Origin: Planctomycetia bacterium
GTDB lineage: Bacteria > Planctomycetota > Planctomycetia > Pirellulales > PNKZ01
Assembly: GCA_021413845.1 (NCBI GenBank)
Contig: JAIOPP010000085.1
Coordinates: 1 to 36,587, forward strand
DNA length: 36,587 bases
Direction of reading: 5' to 3'
Translations under genes and position numbers: made by a program
Part shown: piece by piece, positions 4,614 through 36,587 of the stretch
Numbering within the stretch: the stretch's first letter is position 1
How the letters are laid out: the number at the start of each line of letters is the position of its first letter
Notes under the pieces: generated by a model
The model's database searches: none
What the model saw: only the letters and a program-made list of their open reading frames with translations
What the model was told of the DNA's origin: nothing

Positions 4614-4985
4614 GCCGAAACGGGAGCCGGCGGGCTCGATCTGGCGGTCGGCGGCACCGACTCGCACGCGCTGCGGAGCCTGCTGGGCCTGCGGACCTCG
4701 CGTCCCTGGGTGACGCGCGGCGGCCAGGTAATTGCGCCCCAACTGCGGGCCCTCTGGCTACATGAGTATCTGAACCCCGCAACCACGTTGAACGCAGGCT
4801 TCGCCTCGGCCGGCGGCAGCTTCAACACGCAAGGCCTGAACATGGGCCGCGACTGGGCCGTGCTGGGCACCGGCCTCACGTGGCAAGCTAACCGGCACCT
4901 GAGCGCGTTCGCCAACTACGACGTGCAGACCAACGCCAACCAGACGTTCAACGTCGGCTCCGGCGGCTTGCAGTGGGTGTGGTAA
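4614..4985 (+). pseudogene. C-terminal part of the autotransporter beta-barrel, in frame after TAA
   Basis: Directly after the TAA at 4611-4613 the same frame stays open for 123 codons. It reads as the missing half of the barrel: AETGAGGLDLAVGGTDSHAL, then LRSLLGLR, IAPQLRALWLHEYL, NMGRDWAVLGTGLTW, NRHLSAFANYDVQ, and the terminal strand GSGGLQWVW before TAA at 4983-4985. Alternating aromatic strands and a terminal aromatic residue are what the assembly machinery recognises in autotransporter barrels. With the stop ignored, the barrel would be about 278 residues, the normal size. The single nonsense codon is therefore either a real inactivating mutation, a sequencing error or a readthrough site. 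A GTG at 4710 could start translation of a fragment, but nothing suggests it does. Confidence 0.8.
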
Positions 4986-10170: not shown

Positions 10171-10584
10171 GGTTGTCGCTCCGAAAATGAATGGCCTTGT
10201 AGGATAAGAATCGCGACATGCCGACATGCCTCTCGGCGAACGAGTCCCGCCCTTGAATTCGCCGACGGTCGAAACTTAACGATTCGTTATCTTAACAACC
10301 CCCACGTTGTAGGGACGAAAAATCTCCTTTTTAATCGCTTTTGCTGCGTGCGGCGCCGCACGAATCGAACCGTCCGTTTAACCCGACACACCAGATGATT
10401 AATATCAGCCGATTGGGACGGTCGATCTCAACGGCGCAACTCGGCCGCATGAACAGGTCCGATATCAAGGCCTGCTACGCATGATGGCACCGGCCATTCT
10501 TCCGTCGAAGGTCGCATCGAGAGCATAGCGGAAGCAACTCGAGGCCGCTTGAAGCCCCGACATCATCGCGAACCACATATCCCA
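10171..10584. other. divergent intergenic region
   Basis: About 410 bases separate two divergent gene groups and should hold promoters in both directions. It contains an AT-rich stretch at 10273-10340 (aacttaacgattcgttatc, then tcctttttaatcgctttt) with CTTAAC at 10273-10278 and 10289-10294, and a 16-base palindrome at 10347-10362. No gene is supported; the minus frame at 10475-10858 overlaps the hydrolase gene and has no support. Confidence 0.5.
10347..10362. promoter_or_regulatory. 16-base perfect palindrome in a divergent promoter region
   Basis: CGTGCGGCGCCGCACG is a perfect eight-base inverted repeat midway between divergent operons. The expected number of such perfect 16-base palindromes in this window is about 0.5 for random sequence and higher at high GC. 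It is a candidate dimeric-regulator site, not more. Confidence 0.25.
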
Positions 10585-16391: not shown

Positions 16392-17579
16392 ATGCGATCC
16401 ATTGCCCCGTTCGTCGTTAGAAATCGCTCCGTTGCCGGCCGGTGTCGTGCGACGTGGCCCGCTATGATCGTCGCGGCCTTGCTCATGAGTTCATCGTCTA
16501 CTTGGTCTCAGCAGGCGGCGCCGGCTCCGGAGGCGCGGGTGGATTTGTTCACGCGCTTGGACTTGAACAAAGACGGCAAGGTAACGCGCGAAGAACTTCC
16601 CGAGCGGCAGAAGCCGAACTTCGGCCGCATCGACACGAACGCCGACGGCGCGATCTCGCGCGAAGAGTTGACGAAATACGTCGGTCCGTCGAGGCCGCAA
16701 GCCGACGCCGCGCTGAAGCCGACGCATGCCGACGTCGCTTACGGCCCACACGAGCGAAACAAAATCGACCTGTATCTTGCCGACTCGAAGACGCCGACGC
16801 CGCTAGTGCTCTTCATCCACGGCGGCGGCTTCATGACCGGCGATAAGCGATCAGTCGGCTCCGGGACGGTGGGAGGCTACAATGCGCAAGGCTGGTCCGT
16901 CGCCGCGATCAACTATCGCTTCACCGACGTCCTTCCCGCGCCGGGCCAGTATCTCGATTGCGGTCGCGCCCTTCAGTTCATCCGGCACAACGCCGAGAAG
17001 TGGAACATCAATCCGAAGCTGATCGCCTCGACCGGCGGCTCGGCCGGGGCCGGCACCTCGATGTGGTTGGCGTTTCACGACGACCTCGCCGACCCGAAGA
17101 GCGACGACCCGATCGCACGGCAATCGACCCGGCTGACATGCGTGGTCGTGTCGAACGGTCAATCATCTTACGACCCACGGTTCGCGGAGAAGGCCGGCAT
17201 CCCGCGCCCCAACTTCGAGCGGCACGGCTTCTTCGAACCGTTTTACGGCATCAAGCGCTCCGAGGCCGATACGCCCGAGGCCTATCGCCGCTACGACGAG
17301 GCGGCACCCATCACCTATCTGACGAAAGAGGATCCGCCGGCCATGCTCGTCTATTCCTACGCGAACGAAGAGGTGACCGCGACCAGCGACCTCGGGCTGG
17401 TCGTGCATCATCCCAAGTTCGGCATCGCGCTCAAGGAGCAGATGGACAAGCTGGGGATCGAGTGCGTGGTGCAATATCGCAACTCGACAGGAAACGGAAT
17501 CGTCCGCCACGGCGGCGGAGAACCAACCACAGGAGTCGGCTTTATACTCAAGCACTTCGCAGCGGCAAGTAAGCCTTGA
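16392..17579 (+). CDS. EF-hand / alpha-beta hydrolase (esterase) fusion
   Basis: The 395-residue product starts at ATG 16392 with AAGAG upstream; an internal ATG at 16464 would give a shorter, cleaner signal peptide (MIVAALLMSSSSTWSQ). EF-hand loops lie at 57-68 (DLNKDGKVTREE) and 81-92 (DTNADGAISREE). The hydrolase domain has the oxyanion motif H143-G-G-G-F and the nucleophile elbow G-G-S217-A-G, fitting the BD-FAE/HSL-like carboxylesterases common in planctomycetes. A C-terminal RHGGG supplies a likely catalytic His (about 373). The segment where the acid residue normally sits reads MLVYSYANEEV instead of a G-x-x-D pattern, so the acid may be Glu or lie elsewhere. It is 28 bases after the Kelch-type gene and is the last plus-strand gene before a convergent operon. 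Confidence 0.88.
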   Translation: MRSIAPFVVRNRSVAGRCRATWPAMIVAALLMSSSSTWSQQAAPAPEARVDLFTRLDLNKDGKVTREELPERQKPNFGRIDTNADGAISREELTKYVGPSRPQADAALKPTHADVAYGPHERNKIDLYLADSKTPTPLVLFIHGGGFMTGDKRSVGSGTVGGYNAQGWSVAAINYRFTDVLPAPGQYLDCGRALQFIRHNAEKWNINPKLIASTGGSAGAGTSMWLAFHDDLADPKSDDPIARQSTRLTCVVVSNGQSSYDPRFAEKAGIPRPNFERHGFFEPFYGIKRSEADTPEAYRRYDEAAPITYLTKEDPPAMLVYSYANEEVTATSDLGLVVHHPKFGIALKEQMDKLGIECVVQYRNSTGNGIVRHGGGEPTTGVGFILKHFAAASKP

Positions 17580-24000: not shown

Positions 24001-24146
24001 TCGCTCAAGATGTCGGACGTCAGGTCATCATCGAGTCCGCCGCGCGGTTTTTGGGCCGGGGCCGGAGCGACGACGAATAACGTAGCGCAAACGAACGTGA
24101 TCCAAGTCGAAGCACGAGAAAAACGGACTAGAGGCAAACGAGTCAT
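21063..24146 (-). CDS. large secreted GH42-like multi-domain protein
   Basis: The 1027-residue product starts at the ATG complementary to 24144-24146, in an ATGA overlap with the PQQ-type gene, with GGAG at 24157-24160. A signal peptide (about 1-33, ending APAQ) is followed by a beta-rich N-terminal region (about 55-300; a carbohydrate-binding-like sandwich with TYRIYLRHWIGI and PTGPQRLSLASND). A large central region (about 400-720) carries an alternating strand/helix TIM-barrel-like pattern (HIHVLSSCRTGPAHIARAAEML, GVNWVPGAP). A class-I-amidotransferase-like region follows (about 727-880; RTAILYNRSHEIV, YQALFIGGLNLERRHLAAVRRWVEQGGLLIGSAG), like the trimerisation domain of GH42 beta-galactosidases. 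The C-terminal sandwich (about 900-1027) completes that resemblance. No acid pair could be assigned, so catalysis is unproved. Probably a secreted or cell-envelope carbohydrate-active protein. Confidence 0.78.
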   Translation of the reverse strand: MTRLPLVRFSRASTWITFVCATLFVVAPAPAQKPRGGLDDDLTSDILSDLKGKATTDDLDGLRDSHLTLLASWEGVEPLDARRKSPGKNYRWKEERGFVSPREGQPISTLIDVPKPGTYRIYLRHWIGIAESHPATATLEPLRREGTAEPATYASAGAAASHTFGKVRLIDNALGKEQERKLPIRFESEVQLNTLPDRGMFVWEYWELKLPTGPQRLSLASNDPTARIDAVFLTPSLTFRPSFSEVKKDNTLAGVFLRYRVLEGAKQPVSFHVNLTYHWAGRRVPSGTEPLWYDSVPGAAKVPATEWSPFIDVREQILPGGGPWSTWRTSFTGLERGKVEVQLAWYPHPASVVGTLQTAVGDKWCMFRMPHGSFHHRESAAAAMSGVWNKELIAAFIPEEAIVEKYFSWAEEAARTLGVKADHPKPKHIHVLSSCRTGPAHIARAAEMLAKLGVNWVPGAPRAVNEKYDLFDDAQSKKVKLGDEISTHTAAATINADPFLRAGFHDYLREQVRLLGTDLRTFFGVDDLRHVDCLDVLPDDAGRFERRLFYCSQRYCHVATIPHYARLVKAVEKKTPGAQIYNNYSPHPLFLTGRDMNGSDWFLLPRAGAQTLGWGEDWATGGSWGLNTPATECTTFYAAIVECGVRTRGYPAGFYVGSNCGYSAQKMFSCVSQGISILHLYDWGPIDAWAEGSNAWSEMEGQYLSVMQGTHALGPADEIVGKGKREPRRTAILYNRSHEIVSGKQVWLNRDWMWTFLGLRNSQIPVDVVIEEDLTDATLASYQALFIGGLNLERRHLAAVRRWVEQGGLLIGSAGAALDDVYGDRMPETVELFGAAQRLATVDDTKSRTRIMFDASDEYAAIDLPAAAAGDQKYILTPTTGKLIARYDGGEGAVVVNALGRGRTILLGVTTGETFRVGGGAKSPARAWLAAPVLRQLGRSQTEFDCPESEVTRFDHASGTAVLIAIYTSKPEELSKAPGRLSVQVDRPVREVTSALHGPLKWELHDGRIEIETPPPAAMVVDSIILR

Positions 24147-26095
24147 CGTTGCTTCGCTCCGGGAGGCGAGAGTCGATACAAAAATCCGTCGGCGTCGGTC
24201 GTCAGAAAAAACGTTTGCCGCTGCACCGAATCCGCAGCGATCGCGGCCACGAGGTCTTCCGCCGACGGGGCCTTTTCCGGCTGTGTCCAGGTGACGGGCA
24301 GCGACGTCACGACAGGTCGACCCGTCGGACGCGAGGCGAGACGAACTTCCCATTTCGGCTTCAGATCGTCGCCGAGCAGCACCGCCTTGCCGTCTAAGTC
24401 GAGCAGCGCCGGACGCGGCGCTCCGTCTTGCACGACGATCTCGACGCCGACGATCCATGTCGGCCGTGTGGTCTCGACAAGGATCGAGCCCGTCTGCGGA
24501 TCGAGCGCGACGATCCGATTTTGTTTCGTGACGACAAGCACGCGCCCTGCATGTTCCAACGGCGGTTGCAGTAGTCGATCGCCCGCCGCGAACCGCCACT
24601 TAGTCGAGCCATCACGCGGGTCGATTGCCGAAAGGGTTTCCTCTTTGGGGGAAAACACGAGCCGCAAGCCGCCGGCTTTTGTAATCGGTCCGGCAACGCT
24701 GCCGGCGAGCGCGACGCGCCAGAGCGGCTTACCGTCGGCCAGCGCGAGAGCGAACAATTCGCCCCGCTCGTTCCCCGCTACGACGCGATCACCGTCGATT
24801 TTCGGTTGTGTCGTGATCGGCGAGGTTTCGGTTGCCCCCCAAACTTCCTTGCCGGCGATATAACGAGTCAGTCGCGCGCCTGCGACCGTGACGGCACCCG
24901 ACTTGTCGTCTACATCGAAGGCCCAATTCGCCGCCACGGCGACGGGAGCCAGAGGAGTTTCTTTACCGTCGGTCCAAGCGATCTCGGCCAGCGATTTCGT
25001 CCAACGAAACAGCCGCGGCTCGGTGCCGTTCGTCCCTCGGACGGTGTCGTTCGCCCCTGGGCTCACGACATATTGCTCGATCCGCTTGGCTCCCGCGGCC
25101 GGAGCTTTCGGAATGCGAATTCGCCAAGCTTCGCGGCCGGTCGCCGCATCGAGGGCCGCAAGTTCATCGTCGACCAAGTACGCTAACCGGTTCCCGTTAG
25201 CGGCCAACAGAGCGACGCGCGCCGGGGCGAGTCGGACGAAATCGTGAATCCGTTTGTCTCCCAACGGCAGGCGAAAGAGGGCCGTGAGTTGTTCGTGGAA
25301 CTCTTCCCAGGGGACACGCTCTTTGACGATGACCGATTCCGAACCTTCTTGCGAGAACGTGACTCGAAATCGACACGCTTGATCGAGAACCTGTATTTCG
25401 ACGACGGCTCGCGCAGGGATCGGTTGTGAAGAGGCGGACGACAACGTCGGCGACCAACCGGCGCTGCATGCCGCGGCCAGCGTGATCGCTTTCAGAGGAG
25501 GCACGATCTTTTCGCGTCCGACCGTGAGGGCATCGCCGAATCCCGGCTTGTCGGCGATCTTGGCCGCGTTCGCGACGACGACTTCGCGAAATTCGATTTG
25601 CAGGGGGAGCGGTGCGGACGGCGAGGCGGCTCCGTAGCCGATGCGGAATCCATTCAGCAAAGTGACGAACGGTGAGTACCAATGCGGCACGCCGCTCAGC
25701 GTTCCTTTCGGATTGGGAGCATGGGCGATCAGCCGCGCGGTCCCTTGCGGACCGTCGAACATCAGAGCATACGCTTCGGCCTGGTTGCCGTAACCGACCG
25801 TGACGATGCTGAGCCATTGCTTCGGGTCGACGCCGGCCGGCACTTCGTTCCAGACGCGCGCCGTCGCCAGCGGCTTAGCCGAGCACCATTCTTGAGCATT
25901 TAGTTCAGCGGCCATTTCCTGAGCCGTCCCGCGAACTTGATCTACGGTTCCGAGGTCGAAGCAGGAGACGACGAAGTTGGGGACCGTTACGGTTTCGGCG
26001 GCAAACGTGCTTGAGCAGAAAACGTTGATCGCGAGGACTATGAAGAGATGCGTCGCCGTACAGCGGTGCGAAATCGAGGACGAACGAGGGAGCAT
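24143..26095 (-). CDS. PQQ-type beta-propeller protein
   Basis: The 650-residue product starts at the ATG complementary to 26093-26095; the frame continues upstream to 26335 without support. A signal peptide (about 1-32, HLFIVLAINVFCSSTFAAE) leads to an N-terminal domain (about 35-290) with no clear family. A quinoprotein-like propeller follows (about 310-640) with repeated blade motifs: LAALDAATGREAWRI, LFALALADGKPLWRVALAG, LSAIDPRDGSTKWRFAAGD, IVALDPQTGSILVE. These A-x-D-x-x-T-G-x-x-x-W elements are those of PQQ-like repeats, which in many exported proteins serve as a scaffold without bound PQQ. It is the first gene of the minus-strand operon; its stop overlaps the next start (ATGA at 24143-24146). 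The ribosome site is weak. Confidence 0.88.
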   Translation of the reverse strand: MLPRSSSISHRCTATHLFIVLAINVFCSSTFAAETVTVPNFVVSCFDLGTVDQVRGTAQEMAAELNAQEWCSAKPLATARVWNEVPAGVDPKQWLSIVTVGYGNQAEAYALMFDGPQGTARLIAHAPNPKGTLSGVPHWYSPFVTLLNGFRIGYGAASPSAPLPLQIEFREVVVANAAKIADKPGFGDALTVGREKIVPPLKAITLAAACSAGWSPTLSSASSQPIPARAVVEIQVLDQACRFRVTFSQEGSESVIVKERVPWEEFHEQLTALFRLPLGDKRIHDFVRLAPARVALLAANGNRLAYLVDDELAALDAATGREAWRIRIPKAPAAGAKRIEQYVVSPGANDTVRGTNGTEPRLFRWTKSLAEIAWTDGKETPLAPVAVAANWAFDVDDKSGAVTVAGARLTRYIAGKEVWGATETSPITTQPKIDGDRVVAGNERGELFALALADGKPLWRVALAGSVAGPITKAGGLRLVFSPKEETLSAIDPRDGSTKWRFAAGDRLLQPPLEHAGRVLVVTKQNRIVALDPQTGSILVETTRPTWIVGVEIVVQDGAPRPALLDLDGKAVLLGDDLKPKWEVRLASRPTGRPVVTSLPVTWTQPEKAPSAEDLVAAIAADSVQRQTFFLTTDADGFLYRLSPPGAKQR

Positions 26096-26881
26096 GTGAG
26101 AGCCGTTGTGAAGATCGAGCGGCGTGCCGATACGGAACCCGAGCGGTCGCCATTCTAATAACGGGTCGCTCGCAACTGCATCAGAAAAACCGTGGGAATC
26201 CCTGCCTCGATTCGCGGTATCCGAAGGGATTTCGGAGGCGTAGCGCCGCAACTCGGCTGGATATCCCGGAAGAGAGTCACGCTCCCGTTCTATTGACGAG
26301 TCAGCGCGGTATCGAGTGGCTCCTGACGCCGCCATCTATCTCCACGATGCGATCATCGATTCCCATCTAACCACCACGCAAGAACGCACACTTTTCCATT
26401 CGCAGATGGCCTACCTCGCATACTGGCCGGCGAGTCTCGCCCATTGGTCCACGGAGCGGCTTACAACTCCGGCAATCCCAACATGACTGACGCGCAAATG
26501 GGAAAGAAGCGAGGCGGGCTTCGTGGATGGTTTCGATTCGGCTCTAGTAGCGTGAGCCCGTTCGGCCGGCCGAAGCGTTGCGATCGGCGGACGCTGCCGC
26601 TGCAACTTAACGCCCGCCCAGTCGAAATGTCGGATTTCGAATCCTGCGGAAAATTCGTCATCAGCGCCCCCCGATGCTTCTCGGCAAGATTTTGGCAATA
26701 AATTTGCCAACGCCTTTGAGGGGGCGATACGATAGCGAGGATTACTCCTTTTTAACTATTGGTTGCTCAACGACCATTAACCTGCGGCGACCCGCAAGTT
26801 ATGGCACTTAAACAGCGATTGCATACCTCTTTGATCGTCGGCCGCGTCCTAAGTCCCCTTTATTAGCAGAGTAAACGAACC
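26096..26881. other. long divergent intergenic region
   Basis: About 790 bases separate the minus-strand operon from the plus-strand eight-gene run. Minor open frames (26411-26710 minus, 26444-26701 plus, 26461-26661 minus) have no ribosome site, no family match and unremarkable composition. The part nearest 26882 is AT-rich (tactcctttttaactattgg at 26744-26763; aagtcccctttattag at 26850-26865) and is the likely promoter area for the plus run. The arms tgcgg and ccgca at 26781-26794 could form a short five-base stem. Confidence 0.5.
26561..26574. promoter_or_regulatory. 14-base perfect palindrome in the divergent region
   Basis: TTCGGCCGGCCGAA is a perfect seven-base inverted repeat, located about 320 bases before the plus-strand run and 470 bases before the minus-strand operon. 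About two such sites are expected by chance in the window, so the assignment is weak. Confidence 0.15.
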
Positions 26882-27448
26882 ATGTTTGCCAAGGTTGCCC
26901 GTTGGTTTTCGATCGTCGCCTTTCTCGTCATCGCCGCGTCGCTGGCGTTTCAGCAATGGAGTACGAGCAAAGCGAACGGCCTCGTCGCCGAGCAGGGCAA
27001 GCATATCGACGCCGCGAACGCGTTGATCACGCAGGCGGCGCCCAAGCTCGACGAACTGACAAGTGAAGCCACGATCGCCGCTTTTCCTGGAAATCGCGCG
27101 CAGCTCGAAGCCAACGTCCGATCGACGGGTGAATTGTACGACAAGGCCGCCGTCGAGTTTCGCCACGCTTCGACGAAGCTCGATGAAGCTTCGAAGGTGA
27201 TGACGGAAGCAAAAGTCGTCGAGTACTTCGCGACGATGCGCGACCGCTGGGCGAACAAGGCGAAGCAAATGGAGCTTCTGCGCGATTACGTTTCGGCTCT
27301 TGTCGATTCGAAGATCGAAAATGCCGAGTCGCTCAGAGCGCGGCACGCCGAACTCAATACCCTCGCCAAAAGCCTCGACGCCGCTGAAAAAGAGCTGAAG
27401 GCGAAGTCCGACAAGATCCATGCCGAGTATCCCGACCTGCTGAAGTAA
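26882..27448 (+). CDS. membrane-anchored coiled-coil protein
   Basis: The 188-residue product starts at ATG 26882; only weak AGAG-type pairing is seen upstream. One N-terminal membrane segment (about 6-24, ARWFSIVAFLVIAASLAFQQW) is followed by about 160 residues of charged, Ala/Glu/Lys-rich helix with heptad-like spacing (LVAEQGKHIDAANALI, LRARHAELNTLAKSLDAAEKELKAKSDKI). No family is recognised. The shape resembles LemA-like or other periplasmic coiled-coil proteins, but the resemblance is structural only. It is the first gene of a plus-strand run; the next gene starts 53 bases later and encodes a DUF3592-type membrane protein. A scaffold role in the envelope is possible. Confidence 0.8.
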   Translation: MFAKVARWFSIVAFLVIAASLAFQQWSTSKANGLVAEQGKHIDAANALITQAAPKLDELTSEATIAAFPGNRAQLEANVRSTGELYDKAAVEFRHASTKLDEASKVMTEAKVVEYFATMRDRWANKAKQMELLRDYVSALVDSKIENAESLRARHAELNTLAKSLDAAEKELKAKSDKIHAEYPDLLK

Positions 27449-27501
27449 GCGTTCTCCATCGTCGTTTTCCCAGGAACCGTTGCGCACCAAGGATTTCGGC
27501 T

Positions 27502-28368
27502 ATGAACGCGCCTTCGAATACTGCTGCCGCCGCGGCCGCCGATCACCAACTGGCTTTGGTCGTGCGAACGCCGCCGCCGCGAAAGGTGCGAGCGAAGACC
27601 GGCACGCGAATCTATTACGCCGTGATCATCGCCGTGTTCTTCGTCGCTCCGGCGCTCACCTCGGCCTGGGGGCAGTGGCAATTGCACAAGGCGAACGTGC
27701 TGCGCAACCGGGGCGTGGCGACGATGGGCCGTGTCGTCCATTCGGAGACGACGACCAGCAGCAGTCGTCGCGGACGCAGCACGTACGGCACGACGACCGA
27801 ATTCGAATTCGAAGCCGACGGCCGAACCTATCGGTTTCATACCAACTATCCGGGAAGCGGCCGCGACTATCCGGGCAAAACGGAGATCGTGTATTTGCCG
27901 GAGAACCCAGCTGAGGCTTCGTCGCGAATGTTTTTGGATCTCTCCGGCACGCAGACTTACGGTTTCAACCTGTCGATCGTGGGCTTGGTGTTGTTCGTCG
28001 CTTTGTCGCCGCTCTGGATGCTGCTGCTTTATCCGACGCTTCGTCGCCGGCGCCTCTTGATCTCCGGTCTGCCGATTCGTGGTACGGTCACGCTAGCCAA
28101 GACCGAAGGGATCTTTTGGGGCGTGCATTACGAATTCATGCTCGAGGGCGCGCTGTATGTCGCCGCCGGCCGGATGGCGACGAAGTACGAGAAGGAGATT
28201 CCGACCGGTGCTTCCGTGCTGATCCTGTACGACCCGCGGAAGCCGAAGCGTTCCGAACTCTATATTCCCACGGCCCGATGCTATGAAATCATCCCGACCG
28301 TCGTATCGTCGCAAGCCGCTCCCACGGCCCGACCGAACGCGGCCGCCGCGACGGGGAGAAACGCATGA
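27502..28368 (+). CDS. DUF3592-type membrane protein
   Basis: The 288-residue product starts at ATG 27502 with AAGGA at 27489-27493. A polar N-terminus (about 1-34) leads to a membrane segment (about 37-57, IYYAVIIAVFFVAPALTSAWG). Then comes a beta-rich domain of DUF3592 type (about 65-145): NRGVATMGRVVHSETT, TEFEFEADGRTYRF, and a P-G-K-T-E-I-V-Y-L-P-E-N-P strand close to the membrane. A second membrane segment (about 153-177) precedes a related domain (IRGTVTLAKTEG, VLILYDPRKPKRSELY). In DUF3592 proteins the pattern Y-x-P-x-x-P ends the extracytoplasmic domain. Its stop overlaps the next start (ATGA at 28365-28368), and the next protein has the same two-domain layout, so the pair is probably a diverged tandem duplication whose products may associate. 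Confidence 0.83.
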   Translation: MNAPSNTAAAAAADHQLALVVRTPPPRKVRAKTGTRIYYAVIIAVFFVAPALTSAWGQWQLHKANVLRNRGVATMGRVVHSETTTSSSRRGRSTYGTTTEFEFEADGRTYRFHTNYPGSGRDYPGKTEIVYLPENPAEASSRMFLDLSGTQTYGFNLSIVGLVLFVALSPLWMLLLYPTLRRRRLLISGLPIRGTVTLAKTEGIFWGVHYEFMLEGALYVAAGRMATKYEKEIPTGASVLILYDPRKPKRSELYIPTARCYEIIPTVVSSQAAPTARPNAAAATGRNA

Positions 28369-30026
28369 GCACGATCGATCCACCGGCCGACGAACGACCG
28401 TTTCCGCCGGAGCTTTTGATTGCGCCGCCGCGCACGATCGTCAAAGGATGGCGCGTGCGCTTGGCGAGTTGGTTGTTTTTGACGCTGGTTTTCCTTCTGC
28501 CCGGCGCGCTGAGCTTCATGGGCTACCTTTCCCAAGCGACGTTTCAACGGTTGCTCGATCACGGTGCCAAGACGACGGGCAAGGTCGTCGAAAAATGGCC
28601 GCCGCGAGATAAATCGTCGCCGAGCTTGGTGTACGAATATGTCGTGAGCGGAGAATCGCATCGCGTCTCGGAACCCCGTTCGCGCGAAGACTGGGCGGCG
28701 ACCGCCTTAGGGACCGAAGCGCCGATCGTCTACCTGCCCGAAGATCCCGGTTCGGCTTACACGGAGCACGCGATCGTGGTCGCCGGGAAGACGTCTACCA
28801 CGGCCCTGGCGCTCTGGATCATCTCGGGAGTACTCGCGGTGTGTACCTTGCCGTTCTGGATCTACATCGGTCGCAGGCACGGCAAGATTGCGCAGTTGGC
28901 CCGCTCCGGCATCCCGACGAACTGCACGATCACATCGGTCGAACGAATCAGCATCTCAAACCACGATCATTGGACGCTGAAGTACTCGTTCTCCACGCCA
29001 GGCAAAGGCGCCCGAGAAGGCAAGTCGTACGTGACCGGAGCCGAAGCCGGGCTAGCCGGCGGCGAAGGAGCACAAACGGCGCTGCTCTACGATCCGGCGA
29101 ATGAGGGGAACTACGAGTTGTATGTCGTCGTCGGCCGGCAGTATCGCATCGTCGTCGACGACTTCGCCGTTGTGCGAACTTCAGGCGGATTTCGTTCCCA
29201 CGCGCTACTGGCGGCGCTGCTCGTTGTGGCGGTCGGAACCCGACCGCAGACTACTTGTGCGCAAGCGCCGGCCGCGGCACCGACGGCCATCGCGAAACCC
29301 ACGAGCACGACACCCCAGATTTCGGAAGAAACCATGCGGCGCATGCAGCGACAATTGCAGCGCATGGAAATGGGAATGTCGCCGGACCCGCTCTTTCAAC
29401 CGGAGACCGGCGACGGCATCGCCCGCAAATTGGAGACGGGCGAGTATCGCATCGATGTCGATCGGACTCCTTGGTACTCCGACATTTATTGGCTTACGAG
29501 AATCGGCTTCACGATCTTTGCGTTCGTCATGTTCATCATTTCGCTCGTCCGATATTTTGCGGCGAAGAATCCCCAGCAGGTCCAGGTAGCGCAAGCGGAA
29601 GTGAGTCGAGCGAATCAAATCGCGAAGCAGGCAGGCGCGAAGTATCAGAGCCTTGTTCATCAAGCCGACCACAAGCATTTTGCCGAGCAACGCGATGCGC
29701 TGGCCGCCGCAGGGACGGAGACCGAAGCGTTGTTTCGCCAAGCCGCCGAAAGATATCGCGCGGCGTCCGAACAGTTTGCTCAGGCCGGCGATCCGGAGAA
29801 TCCTTCGGCCTATGAAAAGGCTCGCGTTCGTGCGCGAGCATACAAGGCGTTGGCCGAGTCGCAGTCGACGATGGCTGACATCGCCGGGCTATTGCGTGAC
29901 ACGACGGTGACCTCGGCCGAAGATTTTATCAGTCGGGCGAAACCGCTGCTCGCGGCCGCAAAAGCGTCGGGCGACACCTGCCGCAATCTGTTGGCTCAGG
30001 TCGGCGATGCGAAGGGCACCGCTTAA
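28365..30026 (+). CDS. DUF3592-type protein fused to a membrane coiled-coil region
   Basis: The 553-residue product starts at ATG 28365 with GGGGAG at 28353-28358 inside the preceding gene. Residues about 33-55 are a membrane segment; 60-130 form a DUF3592-type domain (KTTGKVVEKWPP, YEYVVSGESHRVSEP, APIVYLPEDPGSAY); about 145-165 are a second membrane segment; 170-270 are a second related domain (ALLYDPANEGNYELYVV). At about 277-300 the text RSHALLAALLVVAVG...TTCAQA looks like a complete signal peptide in mid-protein. A Thr/Pro-rich stretch, a segment with FQPETGDGIARKLETGEY, a third membrane segment (about 375-397) and a long helical region (about 400-550) follow. This looks like a fusion of a DUF3592 gene to a formerly separate exported protein whose tail resembles the coiled-coil protein at 26882. 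Confidence 0.82.
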   Translation: MSTIDPPADERPFPPELLIAPPRTIVKGWRVRLASWLFLTLVFLLPGALSFMGYLSQATFQRLLDHGAKTTGKVVEKWPPRDKSSPSLVYEYVVSGESHRVSEPRSREDWAATALGTEAPIVYLPEDPGSAYTEHAIVVAGKTSTTALALWIISGVLAVCTLPFWIYIGRRHGKIAQLARSGIPTNCTITSVERISISNHDHWTLKYSFSTPGKGAREGKSYVTGAEAGLAGGEGAQTALLYDPANEGNYELYVVVGRQYRIVVDDFAVVRTSGGFRSHALLAALLVVAVGTRPQTTCAQAPAAAPTAIAKPTSTTPQISEETMRRMQRQLQRMEMGMSPDPLFQPETGDGIARKLETGEYRIDVDRTPWYSDIYWLTRIGFTIFAFVMFIISLVRYFAAKNPQQVQVAQAEVSRANQIAKQAGAKYQSLVHQADHKHFAEQRDALAAAGTETEALFRQAAERYRAASEQFAQAGDPENPSAYEKARVRARAYKALAESQSTMADIAGLLRDTTVTSAEDFISRAKPLLAAAKASGDTCRNLLAQVGDAKGTA

Positions 30027-30045
30027 GTTCTCAGGAGAATCGTAC

Positions 30046-30711
30046 GTGAGTGAAGTCGCCTTGAGTACGGAGCCCGTCGTCGCGCCGCTTGGTCCGCTGA
30101 AGTCGGCGCTCGGCGTCGGCGATCGCGTGGCTCAATTGTACGTCGTCGTCGAATCGAGCGACGAGCGCTTACGATACCGCACGCAAGATTGGTTGCTGCT
30201 GCTCACGGTACCGCTGTCGATCATCGGCCTGTTTTGGAACATCCTCTACTGGATATTTATTCTCGGTCTGCCGCGCTGGGCCGGTAGCGCGCTGCGCGAT
30301 GCCGGCCTCTCGATGCCGCTGTCGTCAGTGCTGGGCATCATCTTTTTGGGCCGGAGCTTCGACTTCGATCGTCGTCGCGGCACGGTTGCCGTACGACGTT
30401 TCTACCTTTTCGGTCCGACGATCTCGTTTGCCGACGTGCAAGCGGTCGAGATCTGCGTGACGCCGCCGGATGCTTCGGTAACCGCGACGAAATCGGACCA
30501 GGTGCGCGTCGGGTTGGTCGACCGCCAAGGTGCCATGCTCGCCTCGCTGGACGACGGCTTTTACGACGTGGCGGCCTGGCAGTCCGCCGCCCCTTGGTTC
30601 GCCCAAGTCGGTCGCCTCGTCGGCTGCTCGCTCCGCATCGCCGGTTCTCCGCAGCAACTTTGTCCTGCAGTTCGCACCCTGCTCGAAGCGGCAGTTGCGG
30701 GCATTCACTAG
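30046..30711 (+). CDS. two-helix membrane protein, unknown family
   Basis: GTG 30046 is chosen as start because AGGAG lies at 30033-30037 with eight-base spacing; the frame runs back to 30007 but overlaps the preceding gene. The 221-residue product has a membrane segment at about 50-75 (WLLLLTVPLSIIGLFWNILYWIFIL) and a weaker one at about 88-102. After them a beta-rich domain reads FDFDRRRGTVAVRRFYLFGPTISFADVQAVEI, a strand pattern like bacterial PH-type domains, in which a membrane protein's own cofactor-free barrel follows two helices. The C-terminus is helical (LRIAGSPQQLCPAVRTLLEAA). The PH comparison is by eye only. It lies 19 bases after the fusion gene and 44 before an EF-hand gene. 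Confidence 0.78.
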   Translation: MSEVALSTEPVVAPLGPLKSALGVGDRVAQLYVVVESSDERLRYRTQDWLLLLTVPLSIIGLFWNILYWIFILGLPRWAGSALRDAGLSMPLSSVLGIIFLGRSFDFDRRRGTVAVRRFYLFGPTISFADVQAVEICVTPPDASVTATKSDQVRVGLVDRQGAMLASLDDGFYDVAAWQSAAPWFAQVGRLVGCSLRIAGSPQQLCPAVRTLLEAAVAGIH

Positions 30712-30755
30712 CTCTACATCAAGATCATCCTCAATCTCAATTCGGAGTACTATCC

Positions 30756-32048
30756 ATGATCGGTCCTCTGCTTTGCCATGGTCGACGCCTGTTCGCAGCG
30801 GCGGCAATCGTCTGTTGCGGAGCCGGTTTCGTCGCTGCGCAAACGGCCGCATCTCCCAAGTTCGAAAATCTCGACGTCAACGAAGATGGAGTGCTTTCGG
30901 GCAGCGAGTTGAAATCGGTTTCCGGCCGAGATAAGAACGGCGACGGCCGCGTGACGCCTGCGGAGTTCGCTCCGGCTGCGGAGCCCGCCCAGCCCGACCC
31001 GCTGAACAGCAACACGAAATCCGACGAGAAGAAATTTGCCGAACTCGACGTGACGGAAGACGAGTTTCTGTCCGGCCGGGAGTTGCGCGGCGTCGAAGCT
31101 TACGACGTCGACCGCAACGGGCGCGTGACGAAGGAAGAATATCTTCAAGGCGCGGCTGCCGCTCGGCGGAAAGCCGGCGTTCCTGCGCCCGTAGCCCCCA
31201 TCACTAGCCTTCCCGTGGCGCTGGCCCTGCCGCCGTTGCCTCCGCTTCCACCGCTCCCGCAGGGTACTTTGCCTGCGCTGCCTGTTCCGCAACCTAAAGC
31301 TCCCGCCGGCGCGACGAGCGATCTCGATCCGCTGGTCTGGGCGTTTCAAACCGGTGCGATCCAACCGCTGTTGTCGAGCCTGAACGAGCGAGGTCGCAGC
31401 TGCGTCGATGCACCGGTCTTGCAGTTCGCGGTCGATGCCCATCGAAAAGAGTACGGCGACATCGTCGCTCCGAAAGTCGGAGACGTCACCGTCGTCGAAC
31501 AGAATCGGAATGGCGTGGTGTGGAAAACCAACCATGCGGAAGCGGCGTTTACGCGAGGGAAGGTGGCATTGTTCGCCGTGACGGCCGGCGGAGCCATCGA
31601 AGACGCCGACGTCATTTCGCAGCTCATGGACGAAATCCCGAAGCGCTATTCCGCACAACTGCTCGTGCCTGAAGGAGAAGCACTCGCAGGGAAGACGACC
31701 GATCACTTCGGTCCCCAGGGAGAACGGCTGCTGCGATTGATACTCACGGGTAAAGATCGAGAGGCGTTCGAGTGTTTCTTTTGGGAGACTCGGGATAAGC
31801 TCGGCTTCGAAACGTTGGCGGCCTATTTCGCTCAAACTCGCGCAGCGCTCGGCACGGTCGAGAAGATCGAATGCACGGGCGTGGCCGCCGAAACCGACGC
31901 CGACGGGAAGGTCAAGCCGACCTTCGACGTGCAATACGAACTAACGTCTTCGATCCAAGGTACGGTCAAGGGATGGGTCTCCTTCCAGATCGTCGGGCTG
32001 AAGGCCCGCCTCATGACCATGCAACTCAAGAAGGCCGAAGAGAAATAA
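30756..32048 (+). CDS. secreted EF-hand protein with two DUF3887-like units
   Basis: ATG 30756 with GGAG at 30744-30747 is chosen; the longer frame to 30594 overlaps the preceding gene. The 430-residue product has a signal peptide (about 1-29, ending FVAAQ), EF-hand loops at 40-51 (DVNEDGVLSGSE), 59-70, 98-109 (DVTEDEFLSGRE, with Glu instead of the loop Gly) and 117-128, then a proline-rich linker (about 142-185, LPPLPPLPPLPQG). Residues about 190-430 are two DUF3887-like units: AFQTGAIQPLLSSLNERG, then GERLLRLILTGKDREAFECF and FQIVGLKARLMTMQLK. It is a full-length paralogue of the protein at 8722-10170, which has six EF loops and no proline linker. Exported calcium-binding protein; the role of the C-terminal units is unknown. 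Confidence 0.87.
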   Translation: MIGPLLCHGRRLFAAAAIVCCGAGFVAAQTAASPKFENLDVNEDGVLSGSELKSVSGRDKNGDGRVTPAEFAPAAEPAQPDPLNSNTKSDEKKFAELDVTEDEFLSGRELRGVEAYDVDRNGRVTKEEYLQGAAAARRKAGVPAPVAPITSLPVALALPPLPPLPPLPQGTLPALPVPQPKAPAGATSDLDPLVWAFQTGAIQPLLSSLNERGRSCVDAPVLQFAVDAHRKEYGDIVAPKVGDVTVVEQNRNGVVWKTNHAEAAFTRGKVALFAVTAGGAIEDADVISQLMDEIPKRYSAQLLVPEGEALAGKTTDHFGPQGERLLRLILTGKDREAFECFFWETRDKLGFETLAAYFAQTRAALGTVEKIECTGVAAETDADGKVKPTFDVQYELTSSIQGTVKGWVSFQIVGLKARLMTMQLKKAEEK

Positions 32049-32117
32049 GCGCGCCCTTACTTCTCTGATTCGCCGAAACCCAAATCAATCATCTATCATC
32101 TACCTCGGAGATCGCTC

Positions 32118-33923
32118 GTGAAACTCTCATCACTCTCCTTCGTCGCCTTCACGGCGACCTTACTCTCCGCCGCCGCGCTCCGAGCACAGGCCCCCGCCGG
32201 CAACGAGCTCACCAAGTTCGACGCCGCGCTCTTCGCTAAGTTCGACGACGGCGATGGGACGCTGACCAAGGAAGAGGTCGGGGCCTATCCCTGGCTGCGC
32301 TACGACACCGACGGCGACGGCGCGATCTCTAAAGCGGAGTTCCTGCTCGGCAGACTACAAGACCGGCTCGGTGCGCAGCTCGCACCGAACACGGCCGGCT
32401 CCTTCGCCTTGCTCGACTGGACCAACGACGGCAAGCTCTCGGGCGTCGAACTAGATAACGGCCTCTGGCTCAAGTTCGACCTCAACGGCGATAAGATCGT
32501 CGACAAGGGGGAATACCTGACCGGCGGCGGGACCACGCCGACGAATGTTCCCGACGCGCTTCCTAAAGCCGATGCGACGGGCACCTGGAAGAAGCATGTC
32601 GCCGACATTCTGGAGTTCGAGATGCCGGGCGCGCCGGAGCCCACGAAGAAGTCGGCCGAAGAAGTCGGATACCGCTACAGGCTCGACGGCGGCCAAGCCT
32701 CGTACCATGTCTCGGTGAAAGTTCTCAAGAGCGCCCCGGCGGATCCCGACGCGATGCTCGTCAAGGTGTGCGATGCCGTGGCGGCGACGATCCCGGGCGG
32801 ACAGGTCGTCGGTAACGAGAAGATTGCGCTCGGCGGTAATCCCGGTCGCGAACTGATGATCGGCATTCCCGGCAAGCTTCGCTTTCGTCAACAAGTTTTT
32901 ATCGCCCAATCGCGGCTGGTGATAGGAATCGTCCAAGCGAGCGGCGAGACGAGCGTCACGCCTGCCGACGTCGAGCGCTTCTTCGGTTCGCTCAAGTTCG
33001 TCGCCGCCGACAAGCCCGTCCCCGCGCCGGAAGTCGCTACCACGGTGACGCACGCGAAGTTCGTCAAGGCCGTGGCCGACGATGACGACCGCGCGATCAT
33101 CGCGATGTTTCACCCACAAGTCGCTGCCAAGATCAATCCGGCGATGGTTCAGATGCACTTCGACATCAACAAGACCGAGATGGGGGAGATCACCGATACG
33201 AAGTCGTCGCCTCCCGAGATCAAAACCGAAACGATCGACGGCATCGATTACGTGCAGGGCAAACAGACCGTGCAATGCGCCAACGGGCCGATGCAAGTCA
33301 CCACGAGCATCGCCGAGGGAAAGTTGGTCGGCTTTCAACTCGACTCGCCGCGCATCACTCCGGAAATCGTAAATCAACGGATATACGAATACCTCAACGC
33401 CTTGTTGAAAAAAGGAAACGACTCGAAGGATTTCGCCGACAACTTCACGCCCGAATGCGAGAAGTTCGTCCGCACGCTCTTCGATCAAGGTTCCGATCAG
33501 GCCTTGGCGTTGCTCGACCCGCGAGTGGAAAAAGGGTTGAAAGAGAGAGACGAAGTGGCCGACCTCACGCGTGTCCGCAAAACGTTCGGGCCGGTAACGA
33601 AGCTGGAACTAGTGACGTTCCGCGTCGAAGGTACGCCGGAAAAGGGTTTGGATAAATTCAAGCTCGGCTTCGAGGCGACTCGTCCCGGCAAAGCTCCCGC
33701 CACGATCACGATCTTCTACGAAACCGAAGGATTACAAGCGTTCATCATGGGTTATTCGTTCGACGACGAGTTGACCGAAGGTGTCGTCCCGCCGGCTTCC
33801 GGAGTTCCTGCACCTCCGCGTACCGCCCCTCCGCGAGTTGCGCCTCCGTCGACCGACGACGATGTTCCGCCGCCGCCGAAAGCTTCCGCGCCGCCGAAAG
33901 CTCCGGCACCCCCGATTCCCTAA
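32118..33923 (+). CDS. secreted EF-hand protein with PsbP/DUF1795-like insert and DUF3887-like units
   Basis: GTG 32118 is the start, with GGAG at 32107-32110. The 601-residue product has a signal peptide (about 1-24) and four EF loops: the first divergent (FDDGDGTLTKEE, about 42-53), then DTDGDGAISKAE, DWTNDGKLSGVE and DLNGDKIVDKGE (to about 130). Residues about 155-295 read like a PsbP/DUF1795-type beta domain: ILEFEMPGAPEPTKKSAEEV, YHVSVKVLK, ALGGNPGRELMIGIPG, RQQVFIAQSRLVIGIVQ, ERFFGSLKFV. Two DUF3887-like units follow (HAKFVKAVADDDDRAIIAMF..., CEKFVRTLFDQGSDQALALLDP...), then a proline-rich tail ending PAPPIP. The next gene is a tandem duplicate without the PsbP-like insert. Confidence 0.86.
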   Translation: MKLSSLSFVAFTATLLSAAALRAQAPAGNELTKFDAALFAKFDDGDGTLTKEEVGAYPWLRYDTDGDGAISKAEFLLGRLQDRLGAQLAPNTAGSFALLDWTNDGKLSGVELDNGLWLKFDLNGDKIVDKGEYLTGGGTTPTNVPDALPKADATGTWKKHVADILEFEMPGAPEPTKKSAEEVGYRYRLDGGQASYHVSVKVLKSAPADPDAMLVKVCDAVAATIPGGQVVGNEKIALGGNPGRELMIGIPGKLRFRQQVFIAQSRLVIGIVQASGETSVTPADVERFFGSLKFVAADKPVPAPEVATTVTHAKFVKAVADDDDRAIIAMFHPQVAAKINPAMVQMHFDINKTEMGEITDTKSSPPEIKTETIDGIDYVQGKQTVQCANGPMQVTTSIAEGKLVGFQLDSPRITPEIVNQRIYEYLNALLKKGNDSKDFADNFTPECEKFVRTLFDQGSDQALALLDPRVEKGLKERDEVADLTRVRKTFGPVTKLELVTFRVEGTPEKGLDKFKLGFEATRPGKAPATITIFYETEGLQAFIMGYSFDDELTEGVVPPASGVPAPPRTAPPRVAPPSTDDDVPPPPKASAPPKAPAPPIP

Positions 33924-33984
33924 CGACGTGCGCGTTTCACACCCTCTTTGCTTCGACAGAAACATTTTTTCTCGGGAGATCGTC

Positions 33985-35280
33985 GTGTTCCGAATATTTG
34001 GGATGGTTCTTGCCGTCGTCGCGGCGCTGTGCTGCGGCGATTCCGGAAGCGTGCTCGCTCAGCAGCCGGGCATCGCCGGACTTTCGAAGCTCGACGCTAC
34101 GCTTTTCGCCAAATTCGACGACGGCGATGGCGCGCTGACCAAGGAGGAAGTCGGCGAGTATCCCTGGCTCCGTTACGACGTCGACGGCAACGGCGCAATC
34201 TCGAAAGATGAGTTCGTCCTCGGACGATTGCAAGACCGCGTCAGCGCGAATCTCGCACCGAGCACCGCCGGCTCCTTCGCGCTGCTCGATTGGACCAACG
34301 ACGGCAAACTGACCGGAGCCGAGCTCGACGGCGGACTCTGGCTCGAGTTCGACGGCGACGGCGACAAGGTCGTCGACAAAGCCGAATACCTCGCCGGTAA
34401 GAAGTCCGCGCCCCGCACTTCGCCGGACGACGTCGTCCCGGCCCAACATGCGAAGCTGATTAAGGCGCTGACTTCGGACGACGATCGAACGACCCTGGCC
34501 ATGCTGCATACGTTTGCGCGCTCGCGCATCCCGCCGCGCCTCATGCGAATCTATTTCGACATGATCAAATCGGAGATGGGGGCCTTCACCGCCGCCGACG
34601 CCGCCCCCGTCTACAACACCGAAACGATCGAAGGGACCGAATTTCGACGGGCACGACACCGACTTCAGTACGCCAACGGGCCGGTCAACCTCACCGCTTC
34701 GTATCTTCACGGAGTCCTCGCCGGCTTCGATATGGATTCGCCGCAGCTGACCCCCGAGGCGGTTGAAGCCTTTAAATACAAGCGCATCTATGAAATACAG
34801 TTGAGTGATAATCGCAAGGATTTTGTCCGCGAATTCTTACCCCAGTGCGAAAAATTCCTCGGCACCTTGATCGACGTCGGCGCCGACGGCGCGCTGGCCT
34901 TGCTCGACTCCGAATCACAACATACGCTTCGCAACGACGGAACGTTGGAACGGTTGGAGCGCGCACGCCGGACACTCGGACCGATCGCGCGATGGGAACC
35001 GGCGACTCTACTGGTAGACGGCGCAAGAAATAATTGCGTCGAAAAAATCAGCGTCTTTTACGATCTGCATCGAACCGGCAAAGAAGCAGCGTTCGTCGAG
35101 TTCAACTTTATCCTCGAGGGACTGCAGGTAAGCATCATTAATTGCAAAATCGCCGATCCGCTGCAGACTCCGTCACCGGCCGTTCCCGCAGCTCCGGCAG
35201 CACCCGCGCCGCCGCAACTCCCGGCCCCTCCGCGCATCGCTCCGCCGCGAACTTCGTTGCCTGCTCCCCCGATTCCGTAA
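33985..35280 (+). CDS. secreted EF-hand protein with DUF3887-like units (tandem duplicate)
   Basis: GTG 33985 is chosen, with GGGAG at 33974-33978; the frame extends to 33781 over the preceding gene without support. The 431-residue product has a signal peptide (about 1-26, ending VLAQ) and four EF loops nearly identical in order to those of the gene before it: FDDGDGALTKEE, DVDGNGAISKDE, DWTNDGKLTGAE, DGDGDKVVDKAE. It lacks the PsbP-like domain and passes directly into two DUF3887-like units (HAKLIKALTSDDDRTTLAML, CEKFLGTLIDVGADGALALLDS), then a Pro/Ala-rich tail that also ends PAPPIP. It is 61 bases after its duplicate and 59 bases before the caspase-like gene. Confidence 0.87.
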   Translation: MFRIFGMVLAVVAALCCGDSGSVLAQQPGIAGLSKLDATLFAKFDDGDGALTKEEVGEYPWLRYDVDGNGAISKDEFVLGRLQDRVSANLAPSTAGSFALLDWTNDGKLTGAELDGGLWLEFDGDGDKVVDKAEYLAGKKSAPRTSPDDVVPAQHAKLIKALTSDDDRTTLAMLHTFARSRIPPRLMRIYFDMIKSEMGAFTAADAAPVYNTETIEGTEFRRARHRLQYANGPVNLTASYLHGVLAGFDMDSPQLTPEAVEAFKYKRIYEIQLSDNRKDFVREFLPQCEKFLGTLIDVGADGALALLDSESQHTLRNDGTLERLERARRTLGPIARWEPATLLVDGARNNCVEKISVFYDLHRTGKEAAFVEFNFILEGLQVSIINCKIADPLQTPSPAVPAAPAAPAPPQLPAPPRIAPPRTSLPAPPIP

Positions 35281-35339
35281 CTCCCGACCGGAAACCGATC
35301 AAGGCGACGATGAGACACGATGCTAGGTTTCAAAGGACG

Positions 35340-36587
35340 ATGCGAGTGAATCGTAAATGGGTTTCCATATCGGCGTGCGTCGCGTTGCTGATGGCCTCAT
35401 GGAGCGCCGCGGCGGCCGCGCAAGACAACGTAGCGATAGATAAAGTCGAGTGGAATCGCCGCTTGGCCGCGCAGTTCGAGACCGGCATTCGGACGGCGAT
35501 CGTCATCGGAGTCGAAGGCCCGGATCTGTCGAAGATCGGGATGACCATCAAGCGCGAGCAAGGGCCTGCGCCGAAAGCCTGCGCGAACAACGCCGAGCTT
35601 TTCGCCACGCTTTTGACGGAGAATCTCGGCTACCCCCAAGACCAAGTCTTGCTGATGACGCCCGCCGGGGCCGACGACATGCAGCCGCGCCAAGAGAACG
35701 TGGCGCGAGTGCTCAAAGCACGGCTCGATGCCTGCAAGCCCGACGACATAATCCTCGTTTATTTTTCCGGGATGACCGTAGAGCAGGCCGCGCTCTGTTT
35801 GTCCGACTTTCCTGCGAACTTCAACGGCGAACGTGAGAAGGCCGATGCAAGCATGTTGCGGCTCGACGGACTACGCGGGCTTCTGCATCAGTGCCCCGCT
35901 CGGCGGAAGCTGCTCCTCATCGATTGCTGTCACGGCGGTAGGGCCGATCAATTCACGCACGCTTGGCATTCGGTAGCGTTAGGCACCGAATTCCAACAGA
36001 CGACCGGGCTCCTCACCTTGGTGGCGGGTGCTCCCGAAGAAACTCCGAAATCCTACGGCGGATATGGACTCTTCACGAAATCGGTGGCGCGCGGACTCGC
36101 GGGCTCGGCCGATTTCGACCGTAACGGCATCGTCGACAGCGACGAGCTCTATCGCTATCTACTGACGGATGTTTCTTCGGCTATTGCGCGTCTCGACGCA
36201 ACTCTGACGCAAACGCCGACGCGCGTGCTTGGGCAAGACGTGGTCGGGGTATTCGCGCTTTCGCGTCCCACGGGGACGCGACTGCCGCTGCTTAAGGAGC
36301 CGCGGCGCCCCAAGCCCGGCGAAACCTGGACGAATTCGCTCGGCATGAAGTTCGCCTACGTTTCGTCCACGGCGGCGACCCCGATCGGTTCGCCCGAAGA
36401 AGAACCGGCGCATGAAGCCGACGAGTATTTGCACGAGGTCGCGTTGACGAAGCAGCTTTACTACGGCGTCTACGAGGTGACGCAGTCGGAGTATCGGAAG
36501 GTGATGGACGCCGAGCCGAGCTTCTTCTGCGCCGCAGGCGCAGGACGCGATAAAGTCTCGGGACTCGACACCGGCAACTTTCCGGTC
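35340..36587 (+). CDS. caspase-like / FGE-like fusion protein, cut by the window end
   Basis: The frame is open from ATG 35340 to the last base (416 codons). GTG 35346 is an alternative start with better spacing to AAAGGA at 35332-35337. A signal peptide (about 1-28, ASWSAAAAAQ) leads to a caspase-like (C14) domain (about 50-320). It keeps the Cys motif D195-C-C197-H-G-G after KLLLI, but the His motif reads Y141-F-S-G-M145-T, with Met where FSGHG has His. The segment YGLFTKSVARGLAGSADFDRNG contains an EF-like loop followed by ELYRYLL, as in the protein at 6300-8666. From about residue 340 an FGE-sulfatase fold begins (NSLGMKFAY, YYGVYEVTQSEYRKVM) and is interrupted by the window edge. Unlike its paralogue it has no block of N-terminal EF hands; three EF-hand genes precede it instead. 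Confidence 0.87.
   Translation, partial: MRVNRKWVSISACVALLMASWSAAAAAQDNVAIDKVEWNRRLAAQFETGIRTAIVIGVEGPDLSKIGMTIKREQGPAPKACANNAELFATLLTENLGYPQDQVLLMTPAGADDMQPRQENVARVLKARLDACKPDDIILVYFSGMTVEQAALCLSDFPANFNGEREKADASMLRLDGLRGLLHQCPARRKLLLIDCCHGGRADQFTHAWHSVALGTEFQQTTGLLTLVAGAPEETPKSYGGYGLFTKSVARGLAGSADFDRNGIVDSDELYRYLLTDVSSAIARLDATLTQTPTRVLGQDVVGVFALSRPTGTRLPLLKEPRRPKPGETWTNSLGMKFAYVSSTAATPIGSPEEEPAHEADEYLHEVALTKQLYYGVYEVTQSEYRKVMDAEPSFFCAAGAGRDKVSGLDTGNFPV

Follow-up and report, generated by a model that had tools for sequence, protein, structure and literature searches.

Do the eight same-strand genes that close this planctomycete contig encode one system? The window (the whole stretch of DNA analysed, 36,587 bases, which is the complete contig C85 of a draft genome of 7.08 Mb in 167 contigs, here G000) carries eight plus-strand open reading frames (ORFs), g1–g8, from 26882 to its end. 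A sequence-only reading had joined them into a single calcium-responsive envelope complex of DUF3592 membrane proteins, EF-hand proteins and a modified caspase-like protein. The layout behind that proposal agrees with the ORF coordinates: successive intergenic gaps are 53, -4, 19, 44, 69, 61 and 29 bases, with an ATGA overlap between the end of g2 and the start of g3. The proposed protein identities are borne out by Pfam (DUF3592 in g2 and g3, EF-hands in g5, g6 and g7, Peptidase_C14 in g8). Comparison with other planctomycete genomes shows that g5–g8 and a second set of related genes on the minus strand of the window (10227-5369), absent from that proposal, represent two copies of one planctomycete cassette, or derivatives of it, that have diverged from each other. 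The cassette encodes an EF-hand/DUF3887-like protein together with a caspase-FGE protein and a pentapeptide-EF protein. The genes g1–g4 look like a separate membrane block that neighbours the cassette seemingly by chance. Overall, we favour with moderate confidence a reading of two cassette copies specifying an exported calcium-binding assembly, with a non-cutting caspase in this genus and g1–g4 standing apart. As the window spans the entire contig, g8 is truncated at the contig end, its FGE part is incomplete and the downstream content lies out of view.

A recurring cassette in planctomycete genomes

The three cassette genes occur together in G005 (locus L044), which belongs to the same genus as the window genome, in G525 (L105) and G501 (L106) of the same order, and in G281 (L075) of another order of the same class. 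The G005 genes stand in a row on a single contig, namely EF-hand/DUF3887, EF-hand/caspase/FGE, pentapeptide-EF and a g6-type gene; this last type of EF-hand protein additionally accompanies the cassette in two genomes of this genus, and a scan of genome contigs with the g6-type alignment returned one match, JAEUIN01 ('Planctomycetaceae bacterium isolate new MAG-44'), which is the G005 contig. Gene order is EF-hand/DUF3887, caspase-FGE, pentapeptide-EF in G525 and G501, and caspase-FGE, pentapeptide-EF, EF-hand/DUF3887 in G281; the FGE-sulfatase domain (PF03781) of L105 scores 121.9 bits. The gene neighbourhood on which the sequence-only reading had staked its proposal is conserved in part, the link between EF-hand and caspase-FGE genes being kept across two planctomycete orders and the link to DUF3592 not.

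Sigma factor or kinase genes adjoin several of these cassettes. For G525 and G501, genes for an ECF sigma factor and a Ser/Thr kinase lie divergent from the cassette; next to the G281 cassette is a gene for a kinase-FGE protein (all by Pfam). This G281 protein (L075, 3-4202), which runs off the edge of the locus, has at least 1400 residues and combines a Ser/Thr kinase domain with FGE-like domains and leucine-rich repeats. A 4.6 kb contig of G404 (L089) holds a caspase part, an EF-hand gene and a divergent ECF sigma gene (Pfam); its caspase and the one of G525, a genome of a different order, share 76% identity, so that transfer or bin contamination is possible, and this short draft contig is not counted as independent. 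Three cassettes thus adjoin an ECF sigma gene (G525, G501 and G404), and three adjoin a protein kinase gene confirmed by Pfam (G525, G501 and G281).

A gene of the EF-hand plus DUF3887 type was seen in eight genomes (G000, G005, G281, G404, G525, G501, G324 and G191), in six of which at least one cassette partner adjoins it. The DUF3887-type model matches 10 of 297 genomes of the class, 8 of 170 genomes of the order of G281 and 11 of 346 genomes of the window's order. At E 1e-30 the pentapeptide-EF model matches 6 of the 297 class genomes, near full length only in G000 and G281, and 9 of 77 order genomes contain a match to the g6 protein, chiefly to its EF-hand or middle part. Cassette members supplied the sequences for the A7, A9 and A11 models and hence match these by construction. 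Neighbourhoods of matches in G004, G263, G228 and G089 contain no cassette; the comparison leaves aside the weaker-match neighbourhoods of G058, G048, G517, G364-G366 and G179. Loci L107 (G223) and L108 (G509) gave no tblastn match to 11 window proteins at 1e-4.

Two diverged copies in one window

Within the window, g5 is a paralogue of a1 by tree and sequence comparison, and g8 of a2 (Table 1). The a2 protein is 42% identical to the G005 caspase-FGE protein across 738 residues, and g6 shares 49% identity with the fourth cassette gene of G005. The tandem pair g6 and g7 share 75% identity across 116 residues of the EF-hand part and 36% across the remainder. Canonical 12-residue EF loops number three in g5, two each in g6, g7 and a3, five in a1 and six in a2, which has one more within its caspase domain; these counts leave out a further pattern match in g6 and another in g7, both of which fall outside the EF region. 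EF-type loops recur in the EF-hand and pentapeptide products of the cassettes elsewhere, and one lies inside every cassette caspase domain. Going by these loop motifs, it is plausible that the EF-hand proteins bind calcium and respond to it.

An AlphaFold2 model of g6, built from six sequences (pLDDT 69.6), shows EF-hands and places residues 155-295 with the PsbP/DcrB-like fold of 2xb3 (Z 13.7, 137 aligned residues, root-mean-square deviation 3.5) and residues 311-408 with the DUF3887 fold of 4hyz (Z 12.2, 95 aligned, deviation 1.9). Another NTF2-like domain comes next, and its fold matches are weaker (Z ~8). The DUF3887 (PF13026) sequence match of a1 reaches 20.4 bits, under the Pfam cut-off of 31.8. 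The FGE domain of a2 is clear (PF03781, E 1.6e-43, 149.7 bits), and of the active-site cysteine pair that marks a formylglycine-generating enzyme proper, the alignment of cassette proteins shows one candidate Cys, which both a2 and L044 keep in their RGG segments; the AlphaFold2 model of a2 (pLDDT 42.3) was too poor for structure search.

Table 1. Genes of the eight-gene run (g1–g8) and of the minus-strand cassette copy (a1–a3) in the window
Gene	Start	End	Strand	Features
g1	26882	27448	+	small protein; one N-terminal transmembrane-like stretch and coiled helix
g2	27502	28368	+	DUF3592 membrane protein; PF12158 E 5e-13, 50 bits
g3	28365	30026	+	DUF3592 part fused to g1-like transmembrane/coil part; PF12158 E 2.4e-7, 31.7 bits
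g4	30046	30711	+	membrane protein without recognised family; nothing over Pfam cut-off
g5	30756	32048	+	EF-hand protein; DUF3887-like C-terminal part; N-terminal hydrophobic stretch
g6	32118	33923	+	EF-hands; PsbP/DcrB-like domain; tandem DUF3887/NTF2-like domains; N-terminal hydrophobic stretch
g7	33985	35280	+	tandem duplicate of g6 without PsbP-like middle domain
g8	35310	36587	+	caspase-like and start of FGE-like part; N-terminal hydrophobic stretch; truncated by contig end
a1	8722	10227	-	EF-hand and DUF3887-like protein
a2	6300	8666	-	EF-hands, caspase-like and FGE-like parts
a3	5369	6214	-	pentapeptide repeats and EF-hand pair; PF00805 E 4e-22

Loss of the caspase dyad in this genus

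In g8, the caspase domain matches Peptidase_C14 (PF00656, E 4.8e-7, 30.1 bits against a cut-off of 21.4), the only domain that Pfam shows in this protein, and its best NCBIfam model is caspase_w_EACC1 (NF047832, E 2.6e-18, 66.3 bits, below the curated cut-off of 140). The truncated gene gives no PF03781 match, and its FGE-like start is recognised by alignment with a2 and L075. The a2 protein has no PF00656 match at E 1, and its caspase-like part is matched only by caspase_w_EACC1, at 21.6 bits with the same curated cut-off. The catalytic His-Cys dyad is intact in four cassette caspases outside the genus (L075, L105, L106 and L089; SGH...D[CS]CHS), among them the caspase-FGE protein of G281, to which g8 is 37% identical. 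In g8 (SGM...DCCHG, continuing as DCCHGG) the His is replaced by Met and the Cys kept; in a2 (SGR...EGFTY) the His is replaced by Arg and the Cys lost; in L044 (AGR...DLCNF) the His is again Arg and the Cys kept. All three copies seen in two genomes of the genus have therefore lost the His, and two of the three keep the Cys, in agreement with the modified caspase fold that had been proposed for this locus.

When ten caspase domains are placed in a tree, drawn with a midpoint root, a2 pairs with the G005 protein at a support of 100/100, and g8 stands on a long branch among the remaining members in an unresolved fork. The dyad His may have been lost more than once, as Met in g8 and as Arg in the a2/G005 pair. 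Because the catalytic His is lost in every copy seen, the caspase of this genus is probably a non-cutting binding module. The caspase domain of g8 also contains an EF-hand-like loop, DFDRNGIVDSDE (window 36111-36146), and the loop pattern occurs in nine of ten scanned caspase domains (the exception is L053), dyad-lost and dyad-intact alike. Elsewhere in G000, C142 (two genes) and C87 encode dyad-intact caspase-like proteins, in which the motifs read SGHG and DAC; the two C142 genes (L052, 7514-9244 and 9259-11361) are adjacent and on opposite strands.

The membrane-protein genes

The DUF3592 scores of g2 and g3 exceed the curated cut-off of 25.3 bits. The g1 protein is 22% identical to the C-terminal part of g3 and 31% to a G005 protein encoded on C403, whose neighbours include no match to the window cassette genes; a model built from g3 (A3) matches the C-terminal region of g3 at 29493-30020. 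The fusion of DUF3592 and g1-like sequence within g3 suggests that g1–g3 belong together. The g3 protein is matched in 2 of 7 family genomes, g2 in 2 of 77 order genomes and the model of g1 and the g3 C-terminus in 3 of 297 class genomes, and a scan of genome contigs with g3 found no relative. Transmembrane-like stretches number one in g1, two in g2, three in g3 and one in g4, and a single N-terminal hydrophobic stretch is present in each of g5–g8; all export and transmembrane calls were made by simple hydropathy with a threshold. A literature search for DUF3592 yielded, by title, only a beta-lactamase paper.

Other features of the window

A megablast search of 26800-36587 against PLSDB for plasmid origin gave no match. 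At 2061-4985, a long glycine-rich ORF extending to 4613 is followed 96 bases on by a same-strand ORF, which matches the final part of the autotransporter beta-domain PF03797 (model positions 186-255 of 255); the two may be one gene broken by a frameshift or stop. A probable alpha/beta hydrolase (16392-17579, by eye) has EF-hand-like loops near its N-terminus, and its 40% identical G005 relative lies directly after a DUF3592 gene in L045 (9183-10115).

Weighing the explanations

A single operon of all eight genes, whose DUF3592 membrane proteins, EF-hand proteins and caspase-like protein would make up one calcium-responsive complex of the envelope, has in its favour the common strand, the gaps of at most 69 bases, the ATGA overlap, and GGAG/AGGA-like sites seen by eye upstream of six of eight starts (weak at g1 and g8; start codons are GTG for g4, g6 and g7 and ATG for g8), much as the sequence-only reading had described; nor do terminator-like sites interrupt it above chance (a consensus scan of the region found 8 against 11.1 expected, and 1 promoter-like site against 2.5 expected, likewise not above chance). 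However, short gaps are common across the contig, with at most 100 bases in 6 of 10 other same-strand neighbour pairs by our own gene calls, and close spacing is weak evidence for a single transcript here. In the sister species G005, the g1-like gene lies on C403, a g2/g3-like gene on C154 and the cassette on a separate contig. DUF3592 was matched in 8 of 11 genomes searched and adjoins the cassette only in the window, although some of these contigs are short enough that linkage farther out is possible; in the single-contig genome G525 it is unmatched, and none of the 10 other genomes checked gave a match to g4. One coherent eight-gene system is therefore rejected as a candidate, and we consider the operon-wide complex distinctly unlikely: lack of a conserved neighbourhood was what the sequence-only reading itself had named as its refutation, and for the membrane half conservation fails, so that of its coherent complex a three- to four-part cassette stands and the eight-part version does not. 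The genes g1–g4 could still perhaps share a transcript with the cassette genes in the window species.

The dyad-lost copies admit two further accounts. That the cassette is decaying in this genus, having been duplicated, scattered and stripped of its dyad, would fit the loss of the dyad in all three copies by differing replacements, and the failure to find the cassette in two of four genus members (G006 and G004, where caspase-FGE genes were not searched for); G006 has no g6 match, and G004 has only a weak one (5e-4) and a 254-residue DUF3887 ORF with no EF-hand match. Neither a sigma nor a kinase gene is among the scanned neighbours. The dyad-lost proteins might be decaying instead of repurposed. 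Yet long stop-free frames and EF-hand loops are retained, a2 and its G005 counterpart keep 42% identity across 738 residues, and g6/g7 has been duplicated in tandem, which makes decay unlikely to our minds. By analogy with pseudo-enzymes, the dyad-lost copies could instead regulate, or act as decoys of, dyad-intact caspases such as those of C142 and C87; these three lie on other contigs and form a group of their own in the caspase tree, away from the cassette members (86/97), and we regard such a role as very improbable.

Several observations weigh against the favoured reading of two copies of an exported calcium-binding cassette. The cassette is rare, and several of the DUF3887-type matches are shorter ORFs without an EF part; in G324 and G191 the EF-hand gene has no cassette partners within ~9 kb on either side. 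Scanned neighbours of the window copies (an S15 peptidase, 10549-12423, and a PQQ/BamB-like gene, 24143-26335) and of the G005 cassette (MgtE, amidohydrolase, transglutaminase-like) include neither sigma nor kinase, and the first 199 residues of a G404 gene look kinase-like by eye but have no Pfam match. The caspase proteins of L105, L106 and L089 lack N-terminal EF-hands. Export, which hydropathy suggests is probable, is not indicated for every relative, since no hydrophobic stretch reaches threshold in the L044 EF-hand and g6-type proteins, the L075 pentapeptide protein, the L106 EF-hand and caspase proteins or, at the N-terminus, the L105 caspase; and the joint assembly proposed for the products is conjectural.

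Under the favoured reading, the exported products would bind extracytoplasmic calcium through their EF-hand pairs, which are similar to one another, and would be held by their EF-hand, pentapeptide and FGE-like parts in a single assembly at the envelope. Ancestrally, a kinase would sense a condition, an ECF sigma factor would turn the cassette on and the caspase would cleave a target, and control of this kind is what the gene pairs in relatives suggest; in this genus, the dyad-lost protein would bind, as scaffold, trap or regulator, and not cut. A bolder and more tentative proposal, which we think possible but doubtful, is an undescribed planctomycete envelope system, in which kinase and ECF sigma factor control an exported, calcium-assembled EF-hand/DUF3887, caspase-FGE and pentapeptide-EF complex that would cut a surface or outside target, and from which one genus, losing the caspase His in separate copies, would have derived a calcium-binding scaffold that is duplicated and no longer cuts.

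Comparison with known systems

Literature searches, largely without subscription papers, found no published description of the cassette; its components are of known kinds. Caspase-FGE-sulfatase fusions number 33 sequences in a survey of prokaryotes (Asplund-Samuelsson 2012, PMC3501461) and, like the cassette protein, unite a caspase and an FGE-like domain in one protein. In the accessible text of that survey, the role of the fusions is only speculated on, the term EF-hand is absent and separate EF-hand/DUF3887 and pentapeptide-EF partner genes are unmentioned; it reports sigma factors in metacaspase operons of other groups, pentapeptide repeats in some cyanobacterial metacaspases and a His-Cys dyad conserved in 64% for Planctomycetes, so that dyad loss as such was already known. 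The DUF3887 and PsbP/DcrB-like folds (4hyz and 2xb3) are common to the g6 domains, which differ in being fused with EF-hands, and the fold implies no function.

Caspase conflict systems of the EACC1/EACC2 kind, whose EACC2 neighbourhoods are mostly accompanied by an ECF sigma gene according to the part of the source available (PMC8195603), resemble g8 through its best NCBIfam model and the relatives through their sigma genes; they differ in that g8 scores well under the curated cut-off and has no further Pfam domain and in that the cassette proteins look exported. Among PADLOC defence systems none was matched (g1–g8, a2 and the L105 caspase scanned at E 0.01), the sole model hit being 'caspase' (24.5 bits for g8, 61.7 for the L105 caspase). 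The pairing of ECF sigma and Ser/Thr kinase genes at related cassettes recalls the kinase-linked groups ECF43 and ECF59 as described in the accessible portion of PMC8103513, a likeness limited to the gene pairing, and the pair is not among the genes scanned beside the window copies.

Pseudo-orthocaspases, too, are bacterial caspase folds without the catalytic dyad. The source that describes them, whose available text does not contain 'Planctomycet' (PMC6426788), also reports orthocaspases from archaea that carry an added FGE (8 proteins) or EF-hand (7 proteins) part. The pseudo-orthocaspases have Tyr and Ser for His and Cys, whereas the cassette proteins have Met or Arg for His and keep the Cys in two of three. 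A caspase-FGE protein that recurs with the same calcium-binding partners, near kinase or ECF sigma genes in several genomes, provides a defined and testable partner set, and its dyad-intact and dyad-lost members offer a natural contrast.

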